A stretch of DNA of 64,000 bases, from positions 1-64,000 of the IMG/VR virus record IMGVR_UViG_3300025695_001209. One strand, given 5' to 3'. The notes under the pieces were generated by a model that was not told where the DNA came from, did not search any database, and worked only from the letters and a program-made list of their open reading frames with translations. Origin of the DNA: a virus. Shown in pieces: positions 26,718 to 61,107 of this stretch (the stretch's first letter is position 1; each line of letters opens with the position of its first letter). A program made the translations under genes and the position numbers.

Positions 26718-27335
26718 TTACTTACCTAAATCAGCTCCGAATGATTTACGAATGTCTGAGTCGGAATAGTTTTCGACCTCATCCGAAGTTAATATATATT
26801 CATTCTTACCCGTCTTTTCCATTTCTTCTGACTTATCATCAAAGAAATCTGTTAACTTTTGATTATATGGGTAACTATCTAAACTTCTTAATTGTAATTT
26901 TTCTTCAGGTGATTTTTCACGATACTTCTCAACCTTAGCTTCGATATCATTAATCTTTGATAGAATTTGGTCCATTTGTGATAACTTACCCTCTAAGTCT
27001 GATAACTTAGTGAACATTGTATCCATATATTCATCTTGTTTATCAGATATCTCAGTTTGTTTATTTACTAAATCTGTAATTTCTAACTCTTCGGTACCAC
27101 CTTCTATATCCATAGATTCAGATTCACCTTCGTCATTGACTTTCTCAACATCAGGGTCAGATTCCACATCAACAGGTTCAGGTATCTCTTCAGCTCCTGA
27201 ATCCATATCTAAGTCACCACCTAAATCACCACCTAAATCATCAGCGGCATCAACCGGCTCCTCTTGTTCACTTAAGTACCCATTAATGGTATTGTGTCTC
27301 TTAAGTTCTTCTAATATTCTTTTATCTATCGACAT
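26718..27335 (-). CDS. Acidic coiled-coil protein, possible internal virion protein
   Basis: This 205-residue protein has no recognised family. Residues 24-82 are very acidic and low in complexity (repeated GGDL and many Asp/Glu). Residues about 83-140 are a predicted coiled coil (KLSDLEGKLSQMDQILSKI). The C-terminus is polar. The N-terminus (MSIDKRILEELKRHNTINGY, then LSE) is a short helix followed by a Leu-x-Glu site, a layout like the capsid-targeting peptides of T4 internal proteins. It lies 14 bases after a 74-residue gene and ends before a strong terminator. A structural or packaged role is inferred. Confidence 0.55.
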   Translation of the reverse strand: MSIDKRILEELKRHNTINGYLSEQEEPVDAADDLGGDLGGDLDMDSGAEEIPEPVDVESDPDVEKVNDEGESESMDIEGGTEELEITDLVNKQTEISDKQDEYMDTMFTKLSDLEGKLSQMDQILSKINDIEAKVEKYREKSPEEKLQLRSLDSYPYNQKLTDFFDDKSEEMEKTGKNEYILTSDEVENYSDSDIRKSFGADLGK

Positions 27336-27349
27336 AATCTTTTTTTATT

Positions 27350-27574
27350 TTACCCGTTAAGTAGTGTTTTCACACCGTGTGGGGTCTCAACTTTTAAGGT
27401 ACGGTTAACTTGTCTTGAGTTATCAACCCTCTCAATTAACCCATCTCTCATACTAACAGTATAACAGTCACCTGTATCTAAGTCACAAACCTCCTTGTAA
27501 CCATTTCCGGCATCTTTCTCAGTAATTCTCGTATCTTTTGACAAATACTGGTCTAATAATGTTTTTACATTCAT
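27350..27574 (-). CDS. Small hypothetical protein, 74 aa
   Basis: This 74-residue protein starts at an ATG 15 bases downstream of a TATTTATA element. The N-terminus (MNVKTLLDQYLSKDTRITEK) is helical and amphipathic; the rest looks like a small beta fold with two Cys residues in EVCDLDTGDCYTVS. No family is recognised. It is probably cotranscribed with the 205-residue gene 14 bases downstream. Confidence 0.5.
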   Translation of the reverse strand: MNVKTLLDQYLSKDTRITEKDAGNGYKEVCDLDTGDCYTVSMRDGLIERVDNSRQVNRTLKVETPHGVKTLLNG

Positions 27575-42551: not shown

Positions 42552-43403
42552 TTATACTTCTTTTTTCTCTCCTCCTTTAGTTAAATAAGTTTTAACTGGT
42601 TTATCATCTTTATATTCTTTATCCAGAAAATCTTTTATTGAATCAATATTTCCGGGGTCATCGTCTGAAAACCCAATCATAGGTACAAAGTTGTTTTTTA
42701 TGTCATTTTTAAAGAAAGCTCTTTGATTTAACTTTGAGGACATTTCTTTAACGTATGAAATGAAGTCTCTTAAAGCCTTAATCTTTCCTTCTTCAGGATT
42801 AGCTGCACTACCTTCTCCATATGTCACTGGATGAAACTTCAGTAAGTTTAGGTACATTTCAATCATATCATCATCAGTCATATCATCTTCACCCGTAAAG
42901 TCACGGTATTTTTTAAGATTACTAATTAATGTATCTTTACTAATACCCTTATGGTTAGTCATAATCATGTTATAGACCGCATCTCTTAAAACTGAAGGTG
43001 TATGTCCACGAGCAGTTATTATAGAGAATATTGACCCTCCGTTCACCGCTTCCACAAAATCACTCCATGAAGGTCCTTCATCCGCAACCATTGCATCTAC
43101 AATAAATTGTGAATCTCCCTTTACAGTAAAGTTTCTATATGGGTCTTCAGCATAACCTACAATATTATCACCATTATACATGAATGGTTCCTTACCTAAA
43201 ACCCCACGATACTCTGCGAAGTCTTCAGTTGACATACCCACCTCTTTACCATCGTCGGTTAAAACCATTATTTGAGTTGGCATGTTCAAAATGTTATCGT
43301 CCCAATCAAAAGCGTAATACTTTAAGTCGGGATTACCAACATCGTCAAAACCTTCTTTCAGCTCTTTTTCTTCGATGTACTCTCTTAAAATTTTACGAAC
43401 CAT
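42552..43403 (-). CDS. HAD-superfamily phosphatase-like enzyme in the tail operon
   Basis: This 283-residue protein shows HAD motifs in order: motif I YAFDWDDNI (D33, D35), motif II SIITARGHTP near residue 130, and motif IV IGFSDDDPGNID near residue 247, with Lys residues between that could serve as motif III. The substrate cannot be read from sequence; nucleotides, polynucleotide ends and phosphoproteins are all possible. The N-terminal 20 residues (RKILREYIEEKELKEG) are a separate helix with an Ile-x-Glu site, like a capsid-targeting peptide. It is coupled by TAATG to a 47-residue ORF and lies between the sheath and tube genes, an unusual place for an enzyme. Confidence 0.75.
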   Translation of the reverse strand: MVRKILREYIEEKELKEGFDDVGNPDLKYYAFDWDDNILNMPTQIMVLTDDGKEVGMSTEDFAEYRGVLGKEPFMYNGDNIVGYAEDPYRNFTVKGDSQFIVDAMVADEGPSWSDFVEAVNGGSIFSIITARGHTPSVLRDAVYNMIMTNHKGISKDTLISNLKKYRDFTGEDDMTDDDMIEMYLNLLKFHPVTYGEGSAANPEEGKIKALRDFISYVKEMSSKLNQRAFFKNDIKNNFVPMIGFSDDDPGNIDSIKDFLDKEYKDDKPVKTYLTKGGEKKEV

Positions 43404-43546
43404 TACTTTTTAGTGTTAATTTTCTCGATTAATCTCTCTAATTGTGTTTCTGAAATTACAATATTTTGTGGTTTTTCAGAAAAAGTCTTAACTCCATTAC
43501 CCTTAATATTAAGGTGTTCCGATAATATAGATTTTTTAAATTTCAT
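43403..43546 (-). CDS. Small ORF (47 aa) coupled to the HAD gene
   Basis: A 47-residue ORF (starts MKFKKSILSEHLNIKGNGVK, ends INTKK) runs from an ATG at 43546 and its TAA overlaps the ATG of the HAD gene by one base. Its basic, helical composition and coupling support it as real. Its opening MKFKKS is shared with the superoxide dismutase fusion at 50477. No family is recognised. It may act in translation coupling or as a small virion-associated peptide. Confidence 0.5.
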   Translation of the reverse strand: MKFKKSILSEHLNIKGNGVKTFSEKPQNIVISETQLERLIEKINTKK

Positions 43547-50476: not shown

Positions 50477-52012
50477 ATGAAGTTTAAAAAAAGCCAAGAA
50501 CGAATTCAAGATATTGAAAAAACAATTAATGAATCAGAAAACAATCAAAAAATAAATGAAAATGTTAAAGGAGTAAAAAGAATAACGGCAATTAAGTTAC
50601 CTTATTCATACTCATCTTTAAGTCGTTTCATCGATAAAGAAACGATGAATGTTCATTACAATCAACACTATAAAGGGTATCTTAAAAAACTCAACAAGGC
50701 GTTAGAGTCGGTTAAGGACGAAGACTTAGAATTGGAACAGATTGTAAAGGGAATATCTCGTTACAATCAAACCATCAAAAATAACGCTGGTGGGGCATAT
50801 AACCACGAGTTATTTTGGCAAATGATGTCACCAAAACCACAACAACCAAATGGTCCAGTACTTGACAAAATTAAGCGTAAATTCAAAACTTTCGCCAATT
50901 TCAAAAAAGAATTTAAGAACAAATCATTATCTAAGTTTGGTTCAGGTTGGGTATGGTTGGTTCTAACAAAGAGTGGTGATGTTAAAATTATTACGACAAC
51001 CAATCAAGATAACCCGTTAATGAATACTGTAAAATTCGGTGGAATACCTTTATTAGGGTTAGACCTTTGGGAACACGCATATTATCTAAAATATAAAAAT
51101 AGAAGAAATGAATATGTTGATAATTTCTTTAAGGTGATTAATTGGTCGTTCGTAAACAAACAATTCGACACACATCAAAAAGGTAAGCTTAACGAGTCGA
51201 AAGTTGTGAAAGCACTTATTAGTGAAGGACTCTCTAAAGGATGTTCACCACAACAAGTGAATACATATCGAATGGTTTTCAATAGAAACCCACAAGTCAA
51301 AAAGAAGTTTATGTATGCAATTATGGATATACTAAAAGAAGTTTATTCAGAATTTCATTACGAAAAAAATCAATACGCAGATGGTCAAATGTCAGGGATT
51401 TATGATTTCGAACAACCAGGTCGTTCAGTCATAAATAAGTTGAACACAAACTACTCGGCCTTCTGTATTTTAGTGAATGACCTCAACGCAGTGTTAAAAC
51501 ATTATGGGCAGGACCCATTAAACTTTGTGGGTGTTAGTGACAAACAACAACTACGTGAAGTGCAAAGAATGATTAAATTGATGGTTCAGTTTAGATATAG
51601 GATTTTTAATCAAGAATCAGGGACATTCCAAAGTATCATGGCATCTTTAGATAAGACCAATAAGTTTGGTGATGAAAGAGAAATAAAGGCCGTCATTAAT
51701 ATGAAAAATATTTTTAATACTAAAAAAGTATTTAAAGTTGGTGAATTAGGTGGTAAAGATGATATGATTGGTGGTATCGATGCGACTGTTGAAATAGACG
51801 GACAAACAAAAACCATACAGGTTAAACCATTTAATAATACCGAAGAAAATGAAGATAGGACTACGGTATTTGGTACGGGTAATGTTAAACCATATAAAAC
51901 CGATTACATGTGTTTTCATAGTGATACAAAAGGAACTTTAGTGTTTAAAAATGACGACACTAAAATTGTTAATGGTAGGTATACTTTCCCTTCTGATAGT
52001 TTAGTGAATTAA
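50477..52012 (+). CDS. Mn/Fe superoxide dismutase fused to an Mrr-like nuclease domain
   Basis: This 511-residue protein has an N-terminal tail (1-38), a complete superoxide dismutase domain (39-230) and a C-terminal domain (about 240-511). The SOD opens ITAIKLPYSYSSLSRFI and keeps all four metal ligands: H60, H110, D196 and H200 in LGLDLWEHAYYLKYKNRR. NNAGGAYNHELFW and NQDNPLM favour the Mn type. In the C-terminal part, GGIDATVEIDGQTKTIQVK (D435, Q448-V-K450) matches the D-QxK catalytic layout of Mrr-type PD-(D/E)XK nucleases. Leu-Asn-Glu sites lie in the tail and at the domain junction (238-240). I know no such fusion. SOD assignment is firm; nuclease is likely; purpose is unknown. Confidence 0.88.
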   Translation: MKFKKSQERIQDIEKTINESENNQKINENVKGVKRITAIKLPYSYSSLSRFIDKETMNVHYNQHYKGYLKKLNKALESVKDEDLELEQIVKGISRYNQTIKNNAGGAYNHELFWQMMSPKPQQPNGPVLDKIKRKFKTFANFKKEFKNKSLSKFGSGWVWLVLTKSGDVKIITTTNQDNPLMNTVKFGGIPLLGLDLWEHAYYLKYKNRRNEYVDNFFKVINWSFVNKQFDTHQKGKLNESKVVKALISEGLSKGCSPQQVNTYRMVFNRNPQVKKKFMYAIMDILKEVYSEFHYEKNQYADGQMSGIYDFEQPGRSVINKLNTNYSAFCILVNDLNAVLKHYGQDPLNFVGVSDKQQLREVQRMIKLMVQFRYRIFNQESGTFQSIMASLDKTNKFGDEREIKAVINMKNIFNTKKVFKVGELGGKDDMIGGIDATVEIDGQTKTIQVKPFNNTEENEDRTTVFGTGNVKPYKTDYMCFHSDTKGTLVFKNDDTKIVNGRYTFPSDSLVN

Positions 52013-59258: not shown

Positions 59259-59966
59259 ATGAGTATGATTAAGTCCGATATCTTTAGAAAAAAAAGTGCA
59301 GCTGAAGAGAAAGCACTTAAAATGGGATGTAAAGGTACCCACAAACACGATGGTGGGTTCATGCCTTGTAATTCACATTCCGAATGGGAAAAAATAAGTT
59401 CAGTAAGTGAAAAAGAAGAAATTGACGAGTTAGTTGATTATGACGGGACTATGAATAACTCAAAAATCCCGATATTAGACCCTAATGTTACCCCAAAGAA
59501 AACCACAGACCAAACAGTTGCTGCTTCACGTACAAAACAAGACCCATATGCTTTAGGGTTTAGAAGGTATATTGGTGAAGAGGATATGTCTTCGGCATTT
59601 GGATGGGAAGAAACTGAAGATATGGGTTTCGATGAGACTATAGAATATTTAGAGAAACAATTAGGTGTAGACAATGCTGAGGAAAGGGCCGAGGAAATGG
59701 GTAAGGACGATAAGTTAGAAAAGAAAAAAACACCAGGTTCTTTCACAAGAATGAGACTTCAAGAAAAGGAAAAAATGTTCACGAAAGAACAAGTAATGAA
59801 AATGAAAGAAGATTTACTTGTCGATAAAAACTCAGATAACGGAGTACAATCCACAAATAAGGAGATTTCTAAAATCATACTTAGAAATATTAAAGCACTT
59901 AAGAAATTATCCAAAAAAGAAGGTATCAGTACTCAACAACTTATAACTCTATTAAAAAATGAATAA
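59259..59966 (+). CDS. Hypothetical protein with Cys/His cluster, first of a plus-strand cluster
   Basis: This 235-residue protein has a conspicuous cluster near residues 20-45 (MGCKGTHKHDGGFMPCNSHS) with two Cys and three His that could bind zinc. The rest is charged and helical, acidic in the middle (EEDMSSAFGWEETEDMG) and Lys-rich at the end. No family is recognised with certainty. The last eight bases overlap the next gene. Its place before four small genes suggests a virion or head-core set, but that is inference. The true start may be the ATG at 59265. Confidence 0.55.
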   Translation: MSMIKSDIFRKKSAAEEKALKMGCKGTHKHDGGFMPCNSHSEWEKISSVSEKEEIDELVDYDGTMNNSKIPILDPNVTPKKTTDQTVAASRTKQDPYALGFRRYIGEEDMSSAFGWEETEDMGFDETIEYLEKQLGVDNAEERAEEMGKDDKLEKKKTPGSFTRMRLQEKEKMFTKEQVMKMKEDLLVDKNSDNGVQSTNKEISKIILRNIKALKKLSKKEGISTQQLITLLKNE

Positions 59967-60415: not shown

Positions 60416-60712
60416 ATGGCAGAACAAAACGACAGATTAGATTTTTCACAACCAAAGAATAGTTTGAGTGAAATCGCAGAAAGAGAAAGAGCAAAACTTT
60501 TCCCACGTAATGACTATTCACCTCTTTCAGACAAGTATTCGGCGGAACATCCTGATGCTTTAGCTGACGGAGACGATGAAGGTAGAGGTACAGGAGTATT
60601 TTTAGATATACATAATTTAGGTGGTGGTACAAGTACCGACATCAATGAAAGAAATGACGATATCAAAATTAATAAGTACAACTATAAAAACGGTTATAAA
60701 GTAGAGGACTAA
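60416..60712 (+). CDS. Hypothetical protein, 98 aa
   Basis: This 98-residue protein starts one base after the previous stop. It is hydrophilic and likely disordered, with an Arg/Glu helix (SEIAERERAKLFPRNDYS), an acidic Gly-rich middle and a Lys/Tyr/Asn-rich end. Its TAA overlaps the next ATG by one base. No function can be assigned. Confidence 0.45.
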   Translation: MAEQNDRLDFSQPKNSLSEIAERERAKLFPRNDYSPLSDKYSAEHPDALADGDDEGRGTGVFLDIHNLGGGTSTDINERNDDIKINKYNYKNGYKVED

Positions 60713-61107
60713 TGAAACTACAGGAAACCCTAAGGTCGGTTCTTTTAGAGGTGGCGTCAATGGATGACGTACAAAGAGCGATAAAACAAAAACAAGTGGT
60801 CACCATATTCTATGATGGTGACGAACCTGGTGGTCGTGGTTTTAGAACTATTGAACCTGTTTGTTTTGGGTTTTCAAAAGCGGGTAATAGAGTCTTACGA
60901 GGTTGGGACATGGAAGGTGCGTCTCACACCGCATTAAAAGGTGAACAACCCTTACCAGGGTGGAGATTATTTAGGTTAGATAAGATAACGACATTTAAAC
61001 CTACCTTAGATAACTTTACATCTCCCAGACCCGGCTATAACTTTAATGGGGACAAGAGTATGTCAAGAGTAATAATCAACGCACAATTTAATAACGAAAA
61101 TGAATAA
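60712..61107 (+). CDS. WYL-like domain protein
   Basis: This 131-residue protein has a core that resembles a WYL-type SH3-like fold: RTIEPVCFGFSKAGNRVLRG, then WRLFRLDKITTFKP. WYL domains bind small ligands or nucleic acid in bacterial regulators and also occur alone in phages. The N-terminal helix (MKLQETLRSVLLEVASMDDV) contains a Leu-Leu-Glu site like a capsid-targeting peptide. There is no HTH domain, so a regulatory role is only one option. It overlaps both neighbours. Confidence 0.55.
   Translation: MKLQETLRSVLLEVASMDDVQRAIKQKQVVTIFYDGDEPGGRGFRTIEPVCFGFSKAGNRVLRGWDMEGASHTALKGEQPLPGWRLFRLDKITTFKPTLDNFTSPRPGYNFNGDKSMSRVIINAQFNNENE

Follow-up and report, generated by a model that had tools for sequence, protein, structure and literature searches.

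In bacteriophage T4, proteins packaged inside the capsid carry a short helical targeting peptide, and the prohead protease gp21 cuts after an Ile/Leu-x-Glu site, a kind of short string that is also frequent by chance. The first 10 residues of T4 IPIII are enough for packaging, after which gp21, cutting after L/I-x-E, removes the leader (PMC9026906). The system described here resembles T4 IPI, IPII, IPIII and Alt in its short leaders ending in L/I-x-E, in the S77 protease of most related contigs and in the use, in relatives, of one leader on unrelated proteins (PMC9026906, PMC12373910). The mechanism is known from T4; what is new is the scale (an excess of about 30 proteins per genome), the several tag classes, the modularity, the enzyme cargo, with a superoxide dismutase (SOD) and a HAD-like protein, and a tag inside a fusion. 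Many head proteins of the giant Salmonella phage SPN3US and of phiKZ are likewise cut after Glu by an S77-related protease, but their propeptides are mostly longer than 100 residues and follow another motif, whereas the leaders described here have 10-40 residues and a T4-like motif (PMC5694885). The chlorovirus PBCV-1 packages a Cu/Zn SOD in its virion, although both the enzyme family and the virus are unrelated to ours and no such tag is described there (PMC7019647). Our literature search turned up no description of tags like these in T4-like phages of Bacteroidetes or of environmental origin. For most proteins of environmental T4-like phages no role is known, and a readable tag would show which of them enter the head and probably reach the host as infection begins. 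Sequence alone would then point to candidate effectors of anti-defence and metabolism, the odd leaders on phage SOD, HAD, KTSC and nuclease-like proteins would be accounted for, and packaging signals would be available ready-made.

The window analysed here is a 64-kb stretch of a 72.8-kb phage record of IMG/VR (IMGVR_UViG_3300025695_001209), in which T4-like tail genes are present, as seen from a tail sheath match. A sequence-only reading of the window had proposed that a SOD fusion and several smaller proteins form a set of packaged enzymes cut by a gp21-type protease. We compared these proteins with relatives taken from IMG/VR: about 20 for the SOD fusion, 80 for a WYL-like protein, 80 for the major capsid protein of a close relative and, for the HAD-like protein, 80 fetched among at least 600 pattern matches. 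ORF statistics were computed on first-ATG calls.

The SOD fusion and its leader

The SOD-nuclease fusion gene (50477-52012, plus strand; 511 aa) is defined by its ORF, its Fe/Mn SOD Pfam domains and its whole-protein relatives. The SOD domain, residues 39-228 (50591-51160, plus strand), is identified by Pfam, by sequence match to PDB entries and by fold match. H60, H110, D196 and H200 are invariant in an alignment of the close family and correspond to the residues that bind the metal in E. coli MnSOD. With both PF00081 and PF02777 matched and His, His, Asp and His at the ligand positions, the fusion has the features by which a Fe/Mn SOD is recognised. Because PDB SODs can be aligned to it only from residue 36-41 onward, the leader is an addition to the SOD fold. 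This leader, residues 1-28 (MKFKKSQERIQDIEKTINESENNQKINE; 50477-50560, plus strand), ends in INE28/N (a slash marks the predicted cut); AlphaFold2 predicts a helix at residues 5-19, with pLDDT below 50 across residues 1-49.

Two N-terminal sites had been suggested in this protein, KTINE and KINE, and only the latter proved to be kept: at the position of KINE28/N the relatives have IVTE, IIQE, TIHE, ILTE/M, FINE/M, FLNE/M or LVLE/G, all preserving [LIV]xE, while KTINE19 is replaced by KITES, QISGS or QISDS. In several family members the cut would fall right before a Met, possibly the old start of the SOD. When the leaders were shuffled, [LIV]xE was expected in 15.7 and found in 19/19 (z 2.0), which is not convincing taken alone.

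A candidate internal tag and the C-terminal domain

A second tag-like stretch, residues 235-250 (KGKLNESKVVKALISE; 51179-51226, plus strand), lies at the junction between the two domains and has two sites conserved in the family, LNE240/S and ISE250/G. The first had been placed by the sequence-only reading as KLNE240-S exactly at this boundary; it is real and conserved (KINE and KLDE in relatives), and its residues 235-240 have pLDDT below 50 in the AlphaFold2 model. The second, LISE250/G, had been missed. All listed members of the fusion family except the divergent L069 have an [LI]-x-E shortly after the SOD and then an [LI]-x-E-[GA] within about 10 residues. The junction stretch KLNESKVVKALISE/G resembles a class of N-terminal tags found on other proteins, LTESDLVRIINRVINE/G, and relatives have SODs, of 230 and 236 aa, that are tagged and stand alone. 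A conserved, double-site second tag at this place implies that the SOD and the PD-(D/E)XK-like domain should separate. The release of the two enzymes by cleavage, as earlier proposed, thus gains support from the two conserved junction sites and from the stand-alone tagged SODs of relatives; on the junction sites, the resemblance between tags and these stand-alone forms, the fusion looks like two tagged cargos that were joined with both sites kept. In the divergent fusion (L069:191-1717, minus strand) another linker, SRILTE/Q, precedes the C-terminal region and still ends in [IL]xE.

AlphaFold2 modelled the entire fusion with low confidence (pTM 0.40), and for this reason the placement of the domains in that model was not used. 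A separate model of the C-terminal domain, residues 251-511 (51227-52009, plus strand), reached pLDDT 80.7 and suggests a PD-(D/E)XK-like core at about residues 393-511. Structurally it comes closest to Hjc resolvases and restriction enzymes, with Z at most 8.2, and the best Foldseek match is I-Ssp6803I, with E at best 2e-3. An E, a D and a QxK are invariant in this domain among relatives, and by sequence it matched nothing meaningful in Pfam, NCBIfam or PDB. The domain is likely a PD-(D/E)XK-like nuclease. We found no stand-alone homologue of it, all matches being on contigs that carry SOD fusions.

Leaders on other proteins of the window

Alignment of N-termini across relatives, one of the checks that the sequence-only reading had named for its hypothesis, gave conserved sites in five families: those of the SOD, the HAD-like, the WYL-like, the 205-aa and the 47-aa proteins. 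The HAD-like protein (42552-43403, minus strand; 283 aa) is defined by its ORF, its relatives and the HAD motifs DWDD, TARG and SDDD read off its sequence; it has no meaningful match in Pfam, PHROG, NCBIfam or PDB. Its gene lies between those of the tail tube and the tail sheath, and the family is scarce in bacterial genomes, with 2 distant matches. The string REYIEE, previously taken as its site, is not conserved; the conserved one is KELKE17/G, at the end of a leader of residues 1-17 (43353-43403, minus strand; LKE17/G). E17 and G18 are invariant in 18/18 aligned sequences, and in all 62 of 62 distinct leaders P3 is Leu, Ile or Val and P1 is Glu, with a P2 entropy of 2.7 bits. These leaders vary nearly throughout except for the [LIV]-x-E-G just before the domain, where KELKE/G of our phage corresponds to KQLNE/G, RRIHE/G, ILVKE/G and SLSE/G in relatives, and [LIV]xE was found in 44/44 against 25.4 expected after shuffling. 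Distant HAD-like homologues occur in uncultured phage genomes of 635-735 kb, where short leaders end in FLE or FLNE.

The WYL-like protein (60712-61107, plus strand), for which the WYL match in Pfam is weak and under the cut-off, has a leader of residues 1-13 (60712-60750) ending in LLE13/V. The site VLLE13, already noticed from the sequence, is conserved as [LIV]-[IL]-x-E, and MKLxxxLKxL[IL]xE is present in 48/48 distinct leaders; [LIV]xE was found in 30/30 against 13.6 expected after shuffling. Upstream of this gene, a 235-aa protein (59259-59966, plus strand) matches Pfam DUF3721, and the cluster is common in related contigs.

Two further proteins on the minus strand also kept the sites that had been assigned to them. 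The 205-aa acidic protein (26718-27335) has a leader of residues 1-23 (27267-27335) ending in LSE23/Q; GYLSE23/Q becomes YLIE/Q, YIVE/Q and YLME/Q in the three other genomes with a homologue, hence Y[LI]xE/Q in 4/4. The 47-aa ORF (43403-43546) has a leader of residues 1-10 (43517-43546) ending in LSE10/H, and the listed homologues of its ILSE10 have Leu or Ile at P3, Glu at P1 and S, A, T, M, N or R at P2; the site is present in 46/46 homologues, retrieved by a regular expression that itself demanded an E nearby. This ORF perhaps encodes not cargo but a small protein of the prohead core. Its C-terminal half is a conserved helix that resembles the tags of other proteins (ISETQLERLIEKI). A further 74-aa ORF (27350-27574; TRITE/K) was considered as tagged and rejected, as P3 is not conserved and TRTTE occurs in 1 of 4 genomes.

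The prohead protease and the capsid protein

We did not find the S77 protease on the 72.8-kb record. It is present (PF03420) in a relative of 297 kb, which has a SOD fusion 88% identical to ours, and in 14/15 long related contigs, as well as in the phages immuto, PA5oct and Vibrio phage 2.275.O. The gp21 homologue expected for this phage group is found in most related contigs, but not on this fragment. In relatives, the S77 protease carries an ILIE or ILVE string near its own N-terminus, and the capsid protein has NQASHLINE/AA in 43/43 sequences, at the position of the T4 gp23 cut.

Excess of sites across genomes and shared tags

Three relatives (G001, G017 and G030; 903 ORFs) were used for a genome-wide motif test in which the null was obtained by shuffling each N-terminus. 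Within residues 5-36, [LI]xE[AGSQ] occurs in 148/903 proteins against 61.6 after shuffling (z 11.8), an excess of about 29-30 proteins per genome that is a rough figure and presumes first-ATG starts. The control motifs [LI]xD and [LI]xK were flat in the same residues of the 903 proteins, internal windows had no comparable excess (48 against 37.9 expected), and crAss001, where S77 was not found, gave 9 against 7.3 expected. A stricter scan of family alignments for conserved P3 and P1 columns with a variable P2 showed no clear enrichment (N-terminal 3/1636 against interior 12/10810 columns); its N-terminal picks were tag families only, namely HAD, WYL and one more.

A 27-residue tag with the pattern KxxIxLTESDLxxIIxRVLxE, which is distinct from the SOD leader itself, is found on 12 proteins of relatives whose bodies have no BLAST similarity to one another. 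Of the matches to its strict pattern in 3006 proteins, 28 fall within the first 50 residues and a single one lies in the interior. Conversely, one homologous cargo was found with differing tags. The tail sheath, tube, baseplate and neck families that we examined have no such leader. In addition to its SOD fusion, the close relative G001 encodes another enzyme of oxidative stress, which resembles glutathione peroxidase (Pfam GSHPx; L107:13158-13664).

Proposed function of the leaders and alternative explanations

Based on these results, we infer packaging and cleavage, and consider it quite probable that the leaders are T4-like capsid-targeting propeptides cut by the S77 protease. Each leader would extend its protein at the N-terminus by a short, mostly helical stretch, bring it into the prohead core and end in an [LI]-x-E after whose Glu the S77 protease of the phage cuts during head maturation. 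The mature protein would stay in the head, from where it could exit with the DNA. Such tags would be modules attachable to differing cargo, and in the SOD fusion one polypeptide would carry both enzymes in and then be split into the SOD and the PD-(D/E)XK-like nuclease. As to purpose, the SOD could act against superoxide early in infection, and host DNA or defences could be the targets of the nuclease and of other cargo. Several sequence tests, partly independent of one another, support the gp21-type cleavage, and the proposal of a packaged, gp21-cut enzyme set stands in its outline, with the conserved P3 and P1 beside a free P2, the S77 protease of most related contigs, the LINE/A of the capsid protein, the modular tags and the genome-wide excess in its favour, although two of the sites on which it was built were wrong.

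Short motifs invite the suspicion that chance [IL]xE strings in amphipathic N-terminal helices were collected, all the more as KTINE and REYIEE are not conserved and the column scan was not clearly enriched. We regard this as very improbable, because the sites are near-invariant over tens of divergent leaders, the excess has a z of 11.8 with flat controls and one tag is common to unrelated proteins. It is also improbable, if somewhat less so, that the leaders are helices docking onto a scaffold, a baseplate or another assembly partner, or signals for folding or turnover, with [LI]xE as a binding face. The predicted helicity of the leaders, the conserved positions that several tag classes hold beyond the cut site, and the place of the HAD-like gene between the tail tube and tail sheath genes would agree with docking. 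Nevertheless, a free P2 next to a fixed P3 and P1 in unrelated families is more in keeping with a protease site than with the face of a helix, and the motif is the known gp21 motif (PMC9026906) in a group where most related contigs have the protease.

The alternative with the most weight, to which we would give about one chance in four, accepts the cleavage and makes the tagged proteins head-core or scaffold-like factors, cut and lost or kept as passive filling, instead of injected enzymes. T4 core proteins with such sites are indeed cut to fragments that mostly leave the head (PMC9026906). However, the conserved metal-ligand positions of the SOD and the nuclease-like character of the other domain suggest catalysts, and in T4 the internal proteins that bear such leaders enter the host by injection and block its restriction (PMC12373910). 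Returning to propeptides on packaged enzymes, we hold injection of the tagged proteins into the host, which is argued from T4, to be less certain than packaging and cleavage. Tags that end at a head-protease site suggest that this phage group packs a large set of enzymes in its heads. A wider hypothesis, for and against which we see an even balance, would be that a large, poorly cultured group of T4-like phages uses exchangeable tags to load each virion with tens of different proteins, injects them, and places tags within fusions so that the head protease frees several injected enzymes from a single polypeptide.

Similar leaders in cultured phages

The SOD homologue gp223 of Pseudomonas phage PA5oct is comparable to our fusion in being a Fe/Mn SOD with a leader, MNDSIKKYISIAE/A, in a phage that has S77, and it bears the annotation 'ESI-MS/MS' from its depositors; it differs in being stand-alone (182 aa), distantly related and provided with another leader. 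The same annotation is given to the KTSC protein of PA5oct, with the leader MKILEMAE/S, and the KTSC family is also tagged in G001 (IINE/I). By analogy with T4, and from these PA5oct annotations, the tagged proteins are probably present in the virion. With one form of the motif, sites occur in 15/93 MS-marked proteins of PA5oct against 23/305 of the rest (p=0.02), a modest contrast; the strict form gives 9/93 against 12/305 (p=0.06), and control motifs showed no excess among the MS-marked proteins. Vibrio phage 2.275.O has S77, yet its SOD shows no clear leader, and this counts against the reading of the leaders as tags. A SOD in a phage contig lacking S77 has no leader, which speaks for that reading.

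Several proteins encoded in 50 kb of Flavobacterium phage immuto, a stretch that includes the head genes, begin with tag-like leaders, and one tag is common to two of them. The neighbours gp077 and gp076 (L125:7631-8931) have a double tag in common, NFNLRSFLTENKLTKNAQLLKE and NFDLKKFLVENKLTTNSKILKE.
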